DNA from: Nanohaloarchaea archaeon SW_7_43_1
Lineage (GTDB): Archaea > Nanohalarchaeota > Nanosalinia > Nanosalinales > Nanosalinaceae
Length of the DNA: 64,000 bases
NCBI GenBank assembly: GCA_003009795.1
Contig: PXPE01000001.1
Location: forward strand, 446,739 to 510,738
Reading direction: 5' to 3'
The notes below the pieces were generated by a model. The model was given only the letters and a program-made list of their open reading frames with translations, was not told the origin of the DNA and did not search any database. Below, one piece after another: positions 6,317 to 13,038 of the stretch. How positions within the stretch are numbered: the stretch's first letter is position 1; every line of letters starts with the position of its first letter. A program made the translations under genes and the position numbers.

Positions 6317-6655
6317 ATGTCAGATACGGACCTAGAAAGTTTCGAAGATTATATCCTTGAAAATACAGATTATACAGATAAGGTCAAAGCTTTTTCCGGT
6401 ATGGAGTATGACGAGGCTGTCGAGGTAGTTGAAGCTCTCGAAGAAGAACCCGGGATGCAAGAGGTTCTTAGAGAACTAAAGACGGGTTCTCGTGAGATTG
6501 GGGAGATTTGGCAGGGTCCGTATTCTACTCACTATATCAACGAATTACAGTCTCGTGGACTTAATGATATAGAAGGTGTAAATGATATAGAAGTAAGAAT
6601 TACTGTCCCCGGCCGTCTTTACATGGAGTACGTTTCAGAATATGAAAATCTTTAG
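6317..6655 (+). CDS. Acidic hypothetical protein (112 aa)
   Basis: A 112-residue acidic protein with no recognised domain. The N-terminal half is predicted helical. It is the only gene between tRNA-Gly and the decayed tRNA-Gly 3' copy at 6765-6787, a position that would fit cargo of an old integrated element. ATG at 6317 follows a CTAGTAAG stretch without a clear Shine-Dalgarno sequence. No function is proposed. Confidence 0.65.
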   Translation: MSDTDLESFEDYILENTDYTDKVKAFSGMEYDEAVEVVEALEEEPGMQEVLRELKTGSREIGEIWQGPYSTHYINELQSRGLNDIEGVNDIEVRITVPGRLYMEYVSEYENL

Positions 6656-6764
6656 CCCATGAACTGTTGTTCTTCCCCAAGAGGGCAGTCGTAATTTCGA
6701 CCGGATTGACTGTAGAGAATTGCCCGGTATATCCGAGAATATCCATTGAAAAGTAAGGAGATAA

Positions 6765-6787
6765 GGGTTCAAATCTTGGACGCCGCA
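6765..6787 (+). repeat. Decayed copy of tRNA-Gly 3' end
   Basis: The 23 bases match the tRNA-Gly 3' end (6195-6217) at 18 positions, and all five differences are transitions: GGGTTC, then TC, GGAC and CCGCA are conserved. No matching 5' half or acceptor partner is evident nearby. Confidence 0.5.
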
Positions 6788-6818
6788 AATTGTTTCGGTT
6801 CGAAGTTAGTTCTTTACA

Positions 6819-7505
6819 CTATTTCTTGTTGATCAAGTCTCTAAGTGTCGAGTATAGTTGTGTGCTTTGTTCTTCTCTTACGAGGAAGACTGTTTCTGTG
6901 TAAGTTGAGAACATCTCTAATACTCCTATTCCGTTGCCGATTATCTTCTCTGTTAGATATGAGAGTATGCCATTTGCTTCCAGTACTTCTTCCGGTGAAT
7001 CAAGAACAACTATGGCAGCGTTTCTTTCTATATGTTTAATGTCTTTTTTGTCTACTTTGTTTTCGATCAGATTGAGGTTGCTTTTGTTTGTGACTATTCC
7101 GATTTCTGAGTCGGATTGGAGCAGGTAGATTCTGTCCCCACTTCTTCTATCAATTTGGTCGTATGCTTCCAGTACGAGTTCGTGGTACTTGCGTTCTCTA
7201 GGTAGTGTATAGTAGACTATGTCTCCGGCCATGGAAAGCTCTGAGCCCTCAAGAACTCTCTGTATTCTTTCCGTCCAGCTATCTTTCAAAGATAACTCGT
7301 CTTCATATCTTCTGATTGCTACAACTATGGAATCAAGATTTACTTGTTCTCTACCTGTTTTTTCCTCAACTTGTTCCTTGAAGTTCCTGGCAAGTCCCCG
7401 ATAATTGACGGCATCCATATCCATTAATTCCTTTAGAAACGGTTTCTCCTCCAGCAAGCTTCGGGTCGCCTCAGCTACAGAAACATCTTTATTGTGTGAT
7501 TTCAT
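6819..7505 (-). CDS. ACT-domain protein with N-terminal HTH-like region
   Basis: I chose ATG at 7503-7505, giving 228 residues. The longer frame to 7586 passes through AT-rich promoter sequence and translates as non-conserved residues. A TTTAAA element lies about 27 bp upstream on this strand, which suggests a leaderless message. The C-terminal 70 residues (AAIVVLDSPEEVLEANGILS, then IGNGIGVLEMFST) have the pattern of aspartokinase-type ACT domains that bind amino acids. The N-terminal 70 residues are helical and could be a winged helix. A role as an amino-acid-responsive regulator is inference. Confidence 0.75.
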   Translation of the reverse strand: MKSHNKDVSVAEATRSLLEEKPFLKELMDMDAVNYRGLARNFKEQVEEKTGREQVNLDSIVVAIRRYEDELSLKDSWTERIQRVLEGSELSMAGDIVYYTLPRERKYHELVLEAYDQIDRRSGDRIYLLQSDSEIGIVTNKSNLNLIENKVDKKDIKHIERNAAIVVLDSPEEVLEANGILSYLTEKIIGNGIGVLEMFSTYTETVFLVREEQSTQLYSTLRDLINKK

Positions 7506-7592
7506 ATAGAAAAATAGTATTTTGTTTGATTTAAAACTATAACTATAACAATTATACATTACAATACTTGGGTATGGACCGAACAACTTTAG

Positions 7593-7919
7593 GTGAACGC
7601 TTTAAATTCAGACGCTTACTTGACTGAAACTCGAAATCTTTACAGCTGTAGTTCTATTAATTCAGAGAACATCAGCCAAATTCTCAGGAGAGCCTCTATC
7701 CTTCCGAGCGATGGAGGCAGAAGCTATACTGAAGCCCGTGGAAACTATCATCCTCATTACCCTGAAGAAGGAGAGCAACTTGAAGTCTACCAAATAACAC
7801 ATAACTTCTGGGGAGAAGCTGGCTGTTTCAACCTCGAAACCCAGGATATTGACGCAGGCAGCGATACACTCAATTTCCAAGAGATCATAGAGTTCGATAT
7901 TATAGGTGATCAAGAATGA
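7593..7919 (+). CDS. Hypothetical protein translationally coupled to LysRS
   Basis: A 108-residue frame opens with GTG at 7593 and its TGA overlaps the LysRS ATG as ATGA (7916-7919), which argues for a real co-translated gene. It contains a few Cys and aromatic residues and no recognised domain. The start is uncertain because upstream sequence is also promoter for the divergent ACT-domain gene. No function is proposed. Confidence 0.55.
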   Translation: MNALNSDAYLTETRNLYSCSSINSENISQILRRASILPSDGGRSYTEARGNYHPHYPEEGEQLEVYQITHNFWGEAGCFNLETQDIDAGSDTLNFQEIIEFDIIGDQE

Positions 7920-9355
7920 CAGATGAACGAGAAGAACGACTTGAACAGCTACGAAATCTCAGAGAAAACGACGAAGCCTACTCCTACAACTTCGACCGAA
8001 GCCATACGGTGGAAGAGCTAAAGGGATTTGATTCGGGAAGTGAGGAAAAACTTCCAGAAGATAACTTTTCGACTGCAGGCAGAGTAATGGAGATCAGAAA
8101 CTTCGGAGAACTAGCGTTCCTCGATCTCAGAGGAGAAAAGGAAGAAGTTCAGGTAATTGTCAGAAATGACGAGGAACTACTGGAAGAAGTTGAGAACCTG
8201 TATGGAGGTGATATAATCGGAGTAGAAGGAACTCTGACATACACAGATAAAGGAGAGTTCTCACTGATGTCAGAGAACTTAGAAGTGCTCTCTCGTGGTG
8301 CGAGGCAAATACCAAAAGAACATTTTGGAGTAGAAGATGAAGAACTGCAGTATCGGGACAGAGCTCTACATCTGATAACAGACATCGATGCTAGAGACAT
8401 TTTCAGAACAAGAAGCCAGGTTATCTCCGAAATCAGAGACTTCCTAGAAGACAGAGAATTTATGGAGGTAGAAACTCCGACAATCCAGCCTGTCTATGGA
8501 GGAGCAGCCGCAGAACCATTCACCACTCACGTCAACGCTCTGGATCAAGAGCATTACCTAAATATTTCGCCAGAGCTATATCTCAAAAGACTGATTATCG
8601 GCGGATACGAGAGAATCTTCGAAATCACGAAGAACTTCAGAAATGAATCTATAGACACGACTCACAACCCGGAGTTCACGATGATGGAAGTATATCAGGC
8701 TTATGCTGACTATGAGGATATGATGGAGCTGATGGAGCAGCTATATGAGCAAGTCGCTGTAGAAGCTACCGGCTCTGCCGAAGTTGAGTATCAAGGGGAA
8801 ACTCTAGATTTCTCTGCTCCCTGGCCTAGAATGACGATGAGAGAAGCCATTCAAGAAAATGGCGGTTTTGATGTAACAGAGCTTAGAGATGAGGAAATTC
8901 GGGAAAGAATGGAAGAACACGGTGCCGAGCTTGACTCAGAATATGAAAGAGGGTTAGCAATAGCAGAACTATTTGAGGAAGTTGCAGAAGAAAACCTGAT
9001 CCAACCTATACACATCATTGACCATCCAGAGGAAACTACTCCTCTATGTATGCAGCACAGGAATGAAGACGGATTAATCGAGAGGTTTGAGTCATTCGCA
9101 GCAGGCATGGAGCTATGTAATGCCTACACCGAACTTCGAGATCCGATCCGGCAGAGAAACCTGTTTGAGGATGAGCAGCGAAGGCAGGAAGAAGGCGATG
9201 ATGAAGCACATCCAATTGACATGGACTTTCTCAAAGCACTTGAGCTTGGTATGCCGCCAACCGGAGGACTCGGAATCGGTATAGGAAGGATGGTGATGCT
9301 GATGACAGACCAAGAGTCTATTAGAGATGTGCTGCTATTTCCGATGATGAGGTAG
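7916..9355 (+). CDS. lysS: Lysyl-tRNA synthetase, class II
   Basis: A 479-residue class II enzyme that charges tRNA-Lys. An N-terminal OB-fold anticodon-binding domain (about 45-135, FSTAGRVMEIRNFGELAFLD) is followed by the class II catalytic core: motif 1 near FLEDREFMEVETPTIQPVYG, motif 2 FEITKNFRNES, and motif 3 GIGIGRMVMLMT at the C-terminus. Many archaea use the unrelated class I LysRS; the class II form here is the bacterial/eukaryotic type. The preceding small ORF overlaps it by four bases. Confidence 0.97.
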   Translation: MTDEREERLEQLRNLRENDEAYSYNFDRSHTVEELKGFDSGSEEKLPEDNFSTAGRVMEIRNFGELAFLDLRGEKEEVQVIVRNDEELLEEVENLYGGDIIGVEGTLTYTDKGEFSLMSENLEVLSRGARQIPKEHFGVEDEELQYRDRALHLITDIDARDIFRTRSQVISEIRDFLEDREFMEVETPTIQPVYGGAAAEPFTTHVNALDQEHYLNISPELYLKRLIIGGYERIFEITKNFRNESIDTTHNPEFTMMEVYQAYADYEDMMELMEQLYEQVAVEATGSAEVEYQGETLDFSAPWPRMTMREAIQENGGFDVTELRDEEIRERMEEHGAELDSEYERGLAIAELFEEVAEENLIQPIHIIDHPEETTPLCMQHRNEDGLIERFESFAAGMELCNAYTELRDPIRQRNLFEDEQRRQEEGDDEAHPIDMDFLKALELGMPPTGGLGIGIGRMVMLMTDQESIRDVLLFPMMR

Positions 9356-9676: not shown

Positions 9677-11503
9677 ATGGATTGGAAGAAAAGGATTCAT
9701 GGTATTCTATCGAGAGAGGAGAAAGAGGAGGAATTAGAGAACAAGGTTGATCTCCAGATCAATACTTTAGAATCAAGTTTAGATAAAGGAGAGAATCCTT
9801 TGGATGAAACTGAAAAAGTTCTTTCTGAGGAGGAACATTTGGAAAGAGAATTACTCGACATTGAGCAAGAGCTACTTGACCTTCTAACCTTTGATGATTC
9901 AGAATTGGAGGTCGTATTGGAAAAATCTAAAGACTTCTTAGAGTGGAAGGCAGAGAGCCTGAAGGAAATCGAGGCCTGTCTCAAACCTTTGAAACAAATA
10001 GAAAATGGCTTGGCCAGTATCCTTAATTCCATAGAGAATCCTGGCGAAACGCCAAATATTGACCTCTACCAGGTTGGCTGGCAGGAAGTCGTGGAGAACT
10101 CAGAGCAAATCTTCGAAATTTTTGAAAAGTTGGAAGAAGAGGAGCAAGAAATCTTCGAAGAGTTCAACCAGAGGCAAGAGGATTCAGTTCGTCTCTTGGA
10201 GAAAATGGAGGAAGATAGACAGGCTATCAGCAGAATACAAAGTTTGGTTAAGCACCTTGACTCAGAACAAGGAGAGCTTGAAAGCTTAGAAACTATTCGG
10301 CAATCACCTGAACTGAAACAGAAACTAGGTGAGGAAGAAGACAGGCTTTCAACACTTACAAGCAATCTGGGAAGACTTGAAGAAATAGATGAAAAACTGG
10401 AATCAGTCGTCTGTAAAAGGAAAGAGCTTGCAGAAGAAGCTAACGAGCGGGACTTATCGGAGTTAGGGAATCTTTACCATATCATTGAGAACGAGTATGA
10501 GGGCATTATATCCGATCTTGGGAAGTTAGAGGAGATGAATCAGAAAAATTACTTCACAAGTCAAGAGGAATTAGAGCAACAGATAACCTTAGTGAGAGAA
10601 TCAGTTGAAATGGTGAACGAGTATATTAACGAGAGATACAATTTTGAGGTAGATGGCGGAGTATCAAGACGCGATCTACTCAGAGGTATGGGAGCTGCAC
10701 TTGGAGGCTGGACAGGCATAGATACTGCCATAAATGTCTTCAGACAGGCATCAGCAGGACAGTTAAAATTTATGAACCCGGAAGCCATAGGAGGATATGA
10801 TCCAGCAATAGAGAACTCGTTAAATGGAAATCCCACAGATGTCCATATATTCAATTTATACTTCCAAGAAGGCGATCAGAGATATAACGGGCAGAAAGTG
10901 GCCAAGGAGGTAGAGGAGTCTATCAACACACTTGAAGGAGTCCAGTTCAGGGTAAACTGGCATGACTTAAGACCTTGTGTAGAAACAGTTATTGAAAGAA
11001 GTGAATATTCAAGATCGGAAATTACAGATGATGAATTAAAGTCGGCAGAACAGAGAGCAGATAAATTCCGACGTTTGGTGAATGACACTACTGTGGTTGC
11101 GGAGGATGCTGATGGTGCTAAAATTAATTCTATCAAGAGAATTAATGAAATAGAGGAGTGTTTAGACAATTACTTGCCTGAAGACGTCAGAGGAGTGTTT
11201 AGCGACGGAGCTATCAAAGTCATAGCATCAGATTTCAAATTAAAAGACGCATCAGGTGTGAGTTTTGGAGCTAATTCTAAAGATCATATAATCTTCGCAG
11301 CAAGGGTTAACGACCAGACCTGGCTAACTAACTTGATAACACATGAACTTGGTCACAAATTGAGCTTACCTCATACTGCTTCTCCCGATATTATGGGTTA
11401 TTCTGTCACATCTCAGGCTCTGCAGAAGTTTTTCAAAGTTCCTTTCGGTCCAGAATCACAGGCCAATTGGGATAAAGCAAGAAAAATGCATGGAGAAGGG
11501 TAG
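9677..11503 (+). CDS. Coiled-coil / internal Tat motif / metzincin-like protease
   Basis: A 608-residue protein with three parts. Residues 1 to about 320 are nearly continuous acidic coiled coil. At 330-336 comes SRRDLLR followed by a Gly/Ala-rich hydrophobic stretch to about 352, which looks like a twin-arginine signal, but in mid-protein. Residues about 355-608 form a protease-like domain with HELGHKLSLPH (H556, E557, H560, H566) and a Met-turn DIMGY (M573), the metzincin zinc site. AGGAGG at 9655-9660 is a strong Shine-Dalgarno-like sequence 16 bp before ATG. It could be anchored by the Tat segment with the coil inside and the protease outside; internal starts (for example at a Met near residue 317) are an alternative. 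The exact family is unknown. Confidence 0.85.
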   Translation: MDWKKRIHGILSREEKEEELENKVDLQINTLESSLDKGENPLDETEKVLSEEEHLERELLDIEQELLDLLTFDDSELEVVLEKSKDFLEWKAESLKEIEACLKPLKQIENGLASILNSIENPGETPNIDLYQVGWQEVVENSEQIFEIFEKLEEEEQEIFEEFNQRQEDSVRLLEKMEEDRQAISRIQSLVKHLDSEQGELESLETIRQSPELKQKLGEEEDRLSTLTSNLGRLEEIDEKLESVVCKRKELAEEANERDLSELGNLYHIIENEYEGIISDLGKLEEMNQKNYFTSQEELEQQITLVRESVEMVNEYINERYNFEVDGGVSRRDLLRGMGAALGGWTGIDTAINVFRQASAGQLKFMNPEAIGGYDPAIENSLNGNPTDVHIFNLYFQEGDQRYNGQKVAKEVEESINTLEGVQFRVNWHDLRPCVETVIERSEYSRSEITDDELKSAEQRADKFRRLVNDTTVVAEDADGAKINSIKRINEIEECLDNYLPEDVRGVFSDGAIKVIASDFKLKDASGVSFGANSKDHIIFAARVNDQTWLTNLITHELGHKLSLPHTASPDIMGYSVTSQALQKFFKVPFGPESQANWDKARKMHGEG

Positions 11504-11689: not shown

Positions 11690-12565
11690 GTGGATTTACT
11701 GTCAGTTCAAACAGAACGCTCCATAATACCTCAACTTGAAGAGGAGAAAAAACCCGACAGCAAAGAAAAATTACAATCAGAGATAAAGTCTCTGCTAGAA
11801 GGAGAAGTAGAGGAACGAACAATATCCGAACAAGAGCTAAGGTACGAATTCCAAGAGGAAACAGAAGATGGAGCCGAATACGAATTAGTAAATAATGATG
11901 AACTTGATCTTGATAGTCTCCCAGGTATGGAAGATTTAGAGAATGATTTTACCGTCGTTACAGATACACATGGCGGGGTTGATAGGATAGGCACAGGAAG
12001 TAATGGCCATGTCACATTAGAGAATAATGCAGGAACTGAAGAGAAGTATTTCCTCGCAGCAGCCTTTGATGGAGAGATATTCATGAGGAATGATGGCAGT
12101 CACTTTGGTGATGGTGAACAAAGAATCTGGCATTATAGTCTGGAAACAGAGGAAATGAGATATGCTAAAGCCGCCACGATGGAATGGAAGGATTACGAGA
12201 ACAGGGAATTAAAAAACCGATTTGAAAAGGTAGTAGACTTTCAACAGCAGCTCTGGGCTTTGAACCGAGCAAGGAATGAGGTTGAAGACTGGAGCTACAA
12301 TGAGGGAGACAAAGGGGAAAGAGATAGATTGAAGAGTAGATTTGATACGGTAATGAATCAGCTCGCTTTGAATGGAAAGTATGAAGCGAATGAAACCGTA
12401 TCGAGAGGTGGTGCTGCTAGTGGTGGAGATCTAGTAGATGACTTTGAGGAAGCCAGCAAAAGATTTCGAGCCTATGGTTTACTCAAATACGGAATTGATG
12501 CTTTGGACGAAGTAGAAGTAGCAGGAGACAGTTCAAAGGTTGAGTACTCACCAAGAGAATTCTAG
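11690..12565 (+). CDS. Acidic orphan protein (291 aa)
   Basis: The 291-residue frame begins with GTG at 11690 after GGTG-type context. It is strongly acidic; the N-terminal third is helical and Glu-rich. A central stretch, VVTDTHGGVDRIGTGSNGHV, then EEKYFLAAAFDGEIFMRNDG, has a beta-rich look, and the C-terminal half returns to helices. No signal peptide or membrane segment is seen. It follows the metzincin gene in the same orientation and may be co-expressed. I do not recognise a domain. Confidence 0.7.
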   Translation: MDLLSVQTERSIIPQLEEEKKPDSKEKLQSEIKSLLEGEVEERTISEQELRYEFQEETEDGAEYELVNNDELDLDSLPGMEDLENDFTVVTDTHGGVDRIGTGSNGHVTLENNAGTEEKYFLAAAFDGEIFMRNDGSHFGDGEQRIWHYSLETEEMRYAKAATMEWKDYENRELKNRFEKVVDFQQQLWALNRARNEVEDWSYNEGDKGERDRLKSRFDTVMNQLALNGKYEANETVSRGGAASGGDLVDDFEEASKRFRAYGLLKYGIDALDEVEVAGDSSKVEYSPREF

Positions 12566-12603
12566 CCTTCAATCATTCATTCTTATATATTGAGTGATAA
12601 TCT

Positions 12604-13038
12604 ATGGATATGACAGATAGATACGAAAATCTTGATGAACTCGATTTATTCGAGGAAAGAGATGTAGATATGGAACAGTATAGTCTGGATTCAGAATATA
12701 TTAGTGATAGAGTCGAAGACGTTGACAAAATGTTCATAGATTCAGATCGAGAACCTTTGGTATATCCGGCTGAAGATACCTTACATTCAATTCTTGTAGA
12801 GGGCGATGTTCCTGAGGATGAAGATATAGTACTTGCTCTTGTAGGAGATTTCTCTGAATATGTAGGGGAACTGGACGAGGATGATTTTGAAAGTTATCAT
12901 GGAGAGTACGTAATCCCGGAAGATGTTGATAATACTGTTCTCAAACTCGAAGTCCGAGAAACTGATTCCTTACCTGTCGATATTGATGTAGAGAACATCC
13001 GCTTTGAAATCCCTGTAGAACAGCCACCTTTCTATTAG
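12604..13038 (+). CDS. Highly acidic orphan protein (144 aa)
   Basis: A 144-residue protein with an extreme excess of Asp and Glu, and no Cys. The second half has alternating hydrophobic residues suggesting a beta fold (YVIPEDVDNTVLKLEVRE, then IRFEIPVEQPPFY). TTATATATTGAG just upstream (about 12580-12594) could be a TATA box, but is close to the ATG. No domain is recognised. It is the last plus-strand gene of the accessory stretch. Confidence 0.65.
   Translation: MDMTDRYENLDELDLFEERDVDMEQYSLDSEYISDRVEDVDKMFIDSDREPLVYPAEDTLHSILVEGDVPEDEDIVLALVGDFSEYVGELDEDDFESYHGEYVIPEDVDNTVLKLEVRETDSLPVDIDVENIRFEIPVEQPPFY

Follow-up and report, generated by a model that had tools for sequence, protein, structure and literature searches.

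Tat signals are usually described, and searched for, as N-terminal segments: they ordinarily have free N-termini (PMC7317946; PMC5449189; PMC13186574), and TATFIND scans only the first 35 residues (PMC6085387). Could such a signal also act from the middle of a chain, behind a large soluble domain? The question is raised by a gene in a 64,000-nucleotide stretch of DNA (hereafter the window) whose source genome (G000) is that of a nanohaloarchaeon. This genome is a single contig of 956,550 bases with a completeness of 99%. Among named genomes, the closest to it are Nanohaloarchaea archaeon SW_4_43_9 (G001), of the same genus, and Candidatus Nanosalinarum sp. J07AB56 (G004), of the same family. 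The gene encodes a protein of 608 residues (Table 1). In the initial annotation, it had been described as about 320 residues of coiled coil followed by SRRDLLR and a hydrophobic stretch, and then by a metzincin zinc site with a Met-turn. The motif, the stretch after it (which is weakly hydrophobic), the zinc site and the Met-turn were all confirmed in the translation.

Table 1. Features of the gene, with positions in the window
Feature	Position	Strand	Evidence
Whole gene: helical domain, putative internal Tat signal and metzincin domain	9677..11503	+	Full-length homologues, 77% (G001) and 27-28% (G004, residues 16-604) identical
Residues 1-329, Glu/Leu-rich helical (coiled-coil-like) domain, predicted cytosolic	9677..10663	+	Periodicity, AlphaFold2, dN/dS, homology to G004
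Residues 312-313, ATG GTG, sole candidate internal start close before RR	10610..10615	+	Kept in G001
Residues 330-336, SRRDLLR, twin-arginine motif	10664..10684	+	Both Arg invariant in 12/12 homologues
Residues 337-352, Gly-rich weakly hydrophobic h-region	10685..10732	+	19-residue hydropathy 0.83
Residues 370-608, predicted metzincin protease domain	10784..11500	+	AlphaFold2 on 12 homologues, Foldseek
Residues 556-566, HELGHKLSLPH, zinc site	11342..11374	+	Three His invariant (n=12); Glu in 10/12
Residues 571-575, DIMGY, Met-turn	11387..11401	+	Met invariant in 12 homologues

The helical domain and the probable inheritance of the layout

The N-terminal domain is heptad-patterned and contains 22% Glu, 14% Leu and 1.5% Pro, and its hydrophobic periodicity of 3.45-3.65 residues exceeded that of shuffled sequences in all six segments tested (p 0.001-0.04). 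AlphaFold2 modelled it as seven long helices with low confidence (block pLDDT about 40-69), so that helical bundle or coiled coil is a safer description than one long coil. When the window gene was compared with its G001 counterpart, dN/dS was 0.18 over residues 1-310, against 0.24 over residues 356-608. Purifying selection is thus at least as strong on the helical part as on the protease, so that the former is a translated, constrained domain. In a single comparison, the helical part alone matched its G004 counterpart with an E value of 3e-7; a weak match to this domain in G004 (E 2e-4) may reflect helical composition. Homologues with the two halves in separate genes, which the initial annotation had proposed looking for, did not turn up, the helical domain never being found as a gene of its own. 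No structured RNA was found in the region.

The full layout was identified in two relatives, those in G001 and G004, and the first Arg of the twin-arginine (RR) pair lies at residue 331 in the window protein, 331 in G001 and 333 in G004. A scan of the genome contigs with three sequences gave two loci. The G004 copy is syntenic: as in the window, it lies near genes that, judged by sequence, are of DUF59 type, flippase-like, methyltransferase and RNase Z-like. Given these shared neighbours, the two genera probably have the layout by inheritance. A phage or plasmid origin was rejected because no match was found in plasmids, phages or viral contigs. It should be noted that the genes at 6317-9355 and 11690-13038 of the window are absent from the matching place in G001, where the flanking genes lie close together; the missing genes include an aminoacyl-tRNA synthetase-like gene (7916-9355) and two proteins without a Pfam match.

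The twin-arginine segment and the Tat machinery

A profile search for relatives of the presumed Tat protease covered 28 genomes of the class, and the resulting family comparison rests on few, related genomes. Among 291 aligned residues in 12 members, only R331, R332, one Gly, H556, H560, H566 and M573 were invariant. The arginine pair, strictly Arg-Arg and never Lys in all 12, is as strictly kept as the zinc histidines, more than expected by chance, and its invariance while the surrounding residues vary fits a recognised motif. It occupies an ordinary N-terminal position in G005, G013, G008 and the second G020 copy, and follows about 90-170 residues in the second G000 copy, the first G020 copy and G012. 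The catalytic Glu is lost in two homologues, at G000:C1:769424-769777 (HQIGH) and in G007 (HNWGH); both keep the three His and the RR pair and are likely pseudoproteases. Outside the class, profile matches in other archaea were metzincin-like proteins with no such RR signal before the domain.

The segment itself shows an S/TRRxFLK-type motif (SRRDLLR) followed by a moderately hydrophobic stretch, whose 19-residue hydropathy is the maximum of the entire window protein. Hydropathy this low favours Tat over Sec. Against TAT_signal (PF10518), the segment scored 15.7 bits, which is below the cut-off. No membrane helix was evident before the signal in the 19-residue hydropathy scan, and no conserved cleavage site was observed, since ASA-GQ at residues 357-361 of the window protein corresponds to EST-GQ in G001.

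The search for tat genes, proposed earlier as a check, located tatA and tatC side by side at 389,209-390,037 of this genome, a position beyond the window, and both score above their cut-offs. Other TAT_signal matches in the genome include two proteins that combine RR with a lipobox; in several others, RR is found at about 44-47 residues. The invariant RR pair, the homologues with the same signal at a true N-terminus and the tatA-tatC pair together support the reading of the mid-protein segment as a Tat signal, as had been suspected. Neither of the outcomes named beforehand as damaging to that idea (homologues without the RR motif or without the HExxH/Met-turn residues, or a genome without any Tat system) came true.

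Across the 28 genomes, tatC was identified in 8, and RR-metzincins were found in 6 of these and in 3 of the 20 without tatC (Fisher p 0.005, uncorrected for kinship). The three exceptions are G012 and G013, which are incomplete assemblies, and G008, a single contig at 95%. Four near-complete single contigs (G003, G008, G009 and G015) contained Tat-like signals, some with a lipobox, and yielded neither a tatC match nor a tatA match above the cut-off; their signals may be relics, may use Sec or may belong to genomes in which tat genes were missed. The presence of such signals, and of one RR-metzincin, in near-complete genomes without tatC means that RR conservation alone is no proof of Tat use. 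For Ca. Nanohalococcus occultus SVXNc, TatC alone has been reported and the Tat system was called likely inactive (PMC10266531). In contrast, a tatA above the Pfam cut-off adjoins tatC at G005:C1:685901-686739, in what appears to be the genome behind that claim, the two genes are also neighbours in the window's own genome, and the substrates keep their RR.

A probable metzincin below the cut-offs of named families

The C-terminal part has an HExxHxxGxxH-type zinc site and a Met-turn after the third His, as expected for the metzincin clan; the eighth position of the zinc site is Ser in the window protein and Gly in most relatives. AlphaFold2 prediction of residues 370-608 with 12 homologues gave a pLDDT of 74.5 and a pTM of 0.76. 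The best Foldseek matches were all metzincins (E about 1e-4), with leading TM-scores of only 0.3-0.6 and identities of 8-15%, and metzincins were also the best matches in profile searches against solved structures. Archaemetzincin (M54), matrixin (M10), fragilysin and ADAM/reprolysin (M12B), which share the zinc site and Met-turn, were the closest by profile or fold. The window protein differs from them in falling under each curated cut-off, as well as in the low identity of the fold matches. It scored 20.5-21.6 bits against matrixin PF00413 (Peptidase_M10), whose gathering score is 24, and 13.8 bits against archaemetzincin NF033823, whose cut-off is 145; NCBIfam matches were weak. Archaemetzincins carry a second zinc motif of four Cys after HExxHxxGxxH, whereas no Cys follows residue 556 in the window protein. 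The C-terminal part can thus be assigned as a probable metzincin below the cut-off of every named family, in agreement with the initial annotation. A different metzincin-like HExxH protein was observed at G025:C48:3017-3157, in a frame of 594 residues; it has many Cys and, at its N-terminus, a hydrophobic segment resembling that of pilins.

Proposed export from the middle of the chain and other explanations

The domain layout, its conservation, the tat genes and the metzincin site can be read directly from the sequences; from them we infer the topology, export, proteolytic activity and role of the window protein. The reading to which we give about an even chance is that it is a single 608-residue protein which TatAC exports by way of a twin-arginine signal inside the chain. 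The metzincin domain would fold and take up zinc in the cytosol, TatC would bind the RR motif in mid-chain, and the chain would insert as a loop, so that the folded protease is carried across to the cell surface and the 329-residue helical domain is left behind in the cytosol. Fincher et al. reportedly proposed a loop insertion mode in thylakoid work in 1998 (cited in PMC13186574); in such a mode, an extension at the N-terminus would stay on the inner side. Afterwards, the protein could remain at the surface, anchored by its signal and linked to the cytosolic helical domain, or be cut after the h-region and shed. In this host-dependent archaeon, the protease is a candidate for an enzyme that is secreted or displayed on the surface, and that perhaps cleaves proteins at the contact face with the haloarchaeal host. 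As for the helical domain, a tether, oligomerisation, restraint of a protease that folds in the cytosol and timing of export are all guesses, among which we favour a tether combined with control before export.

This reading draws on the RR pair invariant in 12 members, the N-terminal-signal homologues, the adjacent tatA-tatC, the conventional Tat substrates of the genome, the co-occurrence of tatC and RR-metzincins, and a helical part that is constrained and constant in length in three relatives. It also draws on four other nanohaloarchaeal signals without a start codon in the 35 residues before RR and on internal Tat signals that work in polytopic proteins. Against it count the ATG before RR in the three relatives, the sub-cut-off TAT_signal score, the variable cleavage region and the Tat-like signals of near-complete genomes without a tatC match. 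The first of these points bears on a rather unlikely alternative, in which the gene has two products: a full-length protein that stays inside, and an N-terminal Tat protease of about 297 residues made from a start at M312/V313. An ATG lies 15-19 codons upstream of RR in all three full-length relatives, the ATG-GTG pair is kept in G001, and Met directly precedes the RR motif in G012 and the second G000 copy. However, a start codon is missing from the aligned place in G004, whose ATG lies 15 codons before RR, and the G000 and G004 start codons do not align; no excess synonymous conservation was found at the internal start; and the anti-SD duplex energy at M312 (-3.9) equals the in-frame background (-3.5 +/- 2.5), with no Shine-Dalgarno signal above it. 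Selection for an internal start is therefore unsupported by codon conservation or Shine-Dalgarno scores, and the conserved helical part and the constant RR position in the three relatives also favour the full-length reading. Of the options, namely a signal anchor, a cleaved signal or an internal start (placed near residue 317 in the initial annotation), those with a full-length chain are favoured.

The weak h-region and the sub-threshold signal score would also suit a relic, in which the RR segment no longer exports and the helical part of a cytosolic protein binds a partner, and RR-bearing proteins do persist in genomes without detected tatC. We regard this as unlikely: RR is invariant amid varying neighbours, tatA-tatC is present in the window genome, and an active zinc protease free in the cytosol would need some other control. 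Insertion by Sec as a type II signal anchor, the arginines being mere positive charges before a membrane helix, would give the same N-in/C-out topology; it appears very improbable given a Gly-rich segment of such low hydropathy and the strict exclusion of Lys.

Export of a single full-length chain has partial precedents. Polytopic Sec/Tat proteins, among them the Rieske protein of Streptomyces, have been described with internal Tat signals (PMC7317946; PMC5449189; PMC13186574), which function and come after transmembrane helices (PMC5449189). The actinobacterial Rieske protein Sco2149 and other Sec/Tat dual-targeted polytopic proteins likewise have a mid-chain Tat signal of low hydropathy, export a C-terminal metal-binding domain and keep the N-terminal part on the inner side (PMC5449189; PMC7317946). 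In those proteins, an even number of Sec-inserted helices (three in the N-out YkuE type) precedes the signal and already holds the chain in the membrane, whereas the part preceding the signal of the window protein looks soluble and helical. Haloarchaeal Tat substrates, of which this genome has conventional examples, carry the same motif (N-terminal SRRxFLK) and a weakly hydrophobic Gly/Ala-rich h-region; however, the nearest start codon was at most 27 residues before RR in all 18 signals taken from three haloarchaeal plasmids. What appears to be new here is a putative internal Tat signal that lies behind a predicted soluble domain and is combined with a probable metzincin belonging to none of the named families. 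If true, TatC can capture a mid-chain signal in a chain not yet tethered to the membrane, and a set of exported proteins escapes predictors that look only at the N-terminus.

The architecture, called unusual at the outset, does place RR far behind a helical domain and seems less isolated than was thought, as other nanohaloarchaeal signals are preceded by 38-170 residues. Four Tat-like signals (G003, G005, G009 and G014) had no start codon within 35 residues before RR, with 38-93 residues preceding it; one of them continues with LSAGC. That long n-regions are special to nanohaloarchaea was rejected on unambiguous cases (4 of 35 signals, a few of them poor motif placements, vs 0 of the 18 plasmid signals; p 0.29). 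By the most upstream ATG, the counts were 13/35 and 2/18 (p 0.06), so the excess is suggestive only. We tentatively propose, at somewhat less than even probability, that nanohaloarchaea have a natural class of Tat substrates whose internal signal comes after a large soluble domain that stays in the cytosol. A single chain would then connect a cytosolic helical domain with a zinc protease at the surface, with no Sec-inserted helix, and the helical domain might keep the protease inactive or set the moment of its export. Finally, three tandem paralogues with charged helical N-termini of about 45 residues, a Tat-like signal and beta-propeller-like repeats were observed at G000:C1:381671-385599, a few kb from tatA-tatC, and their relatives in G005 likewise lie near its tatA-tatC.
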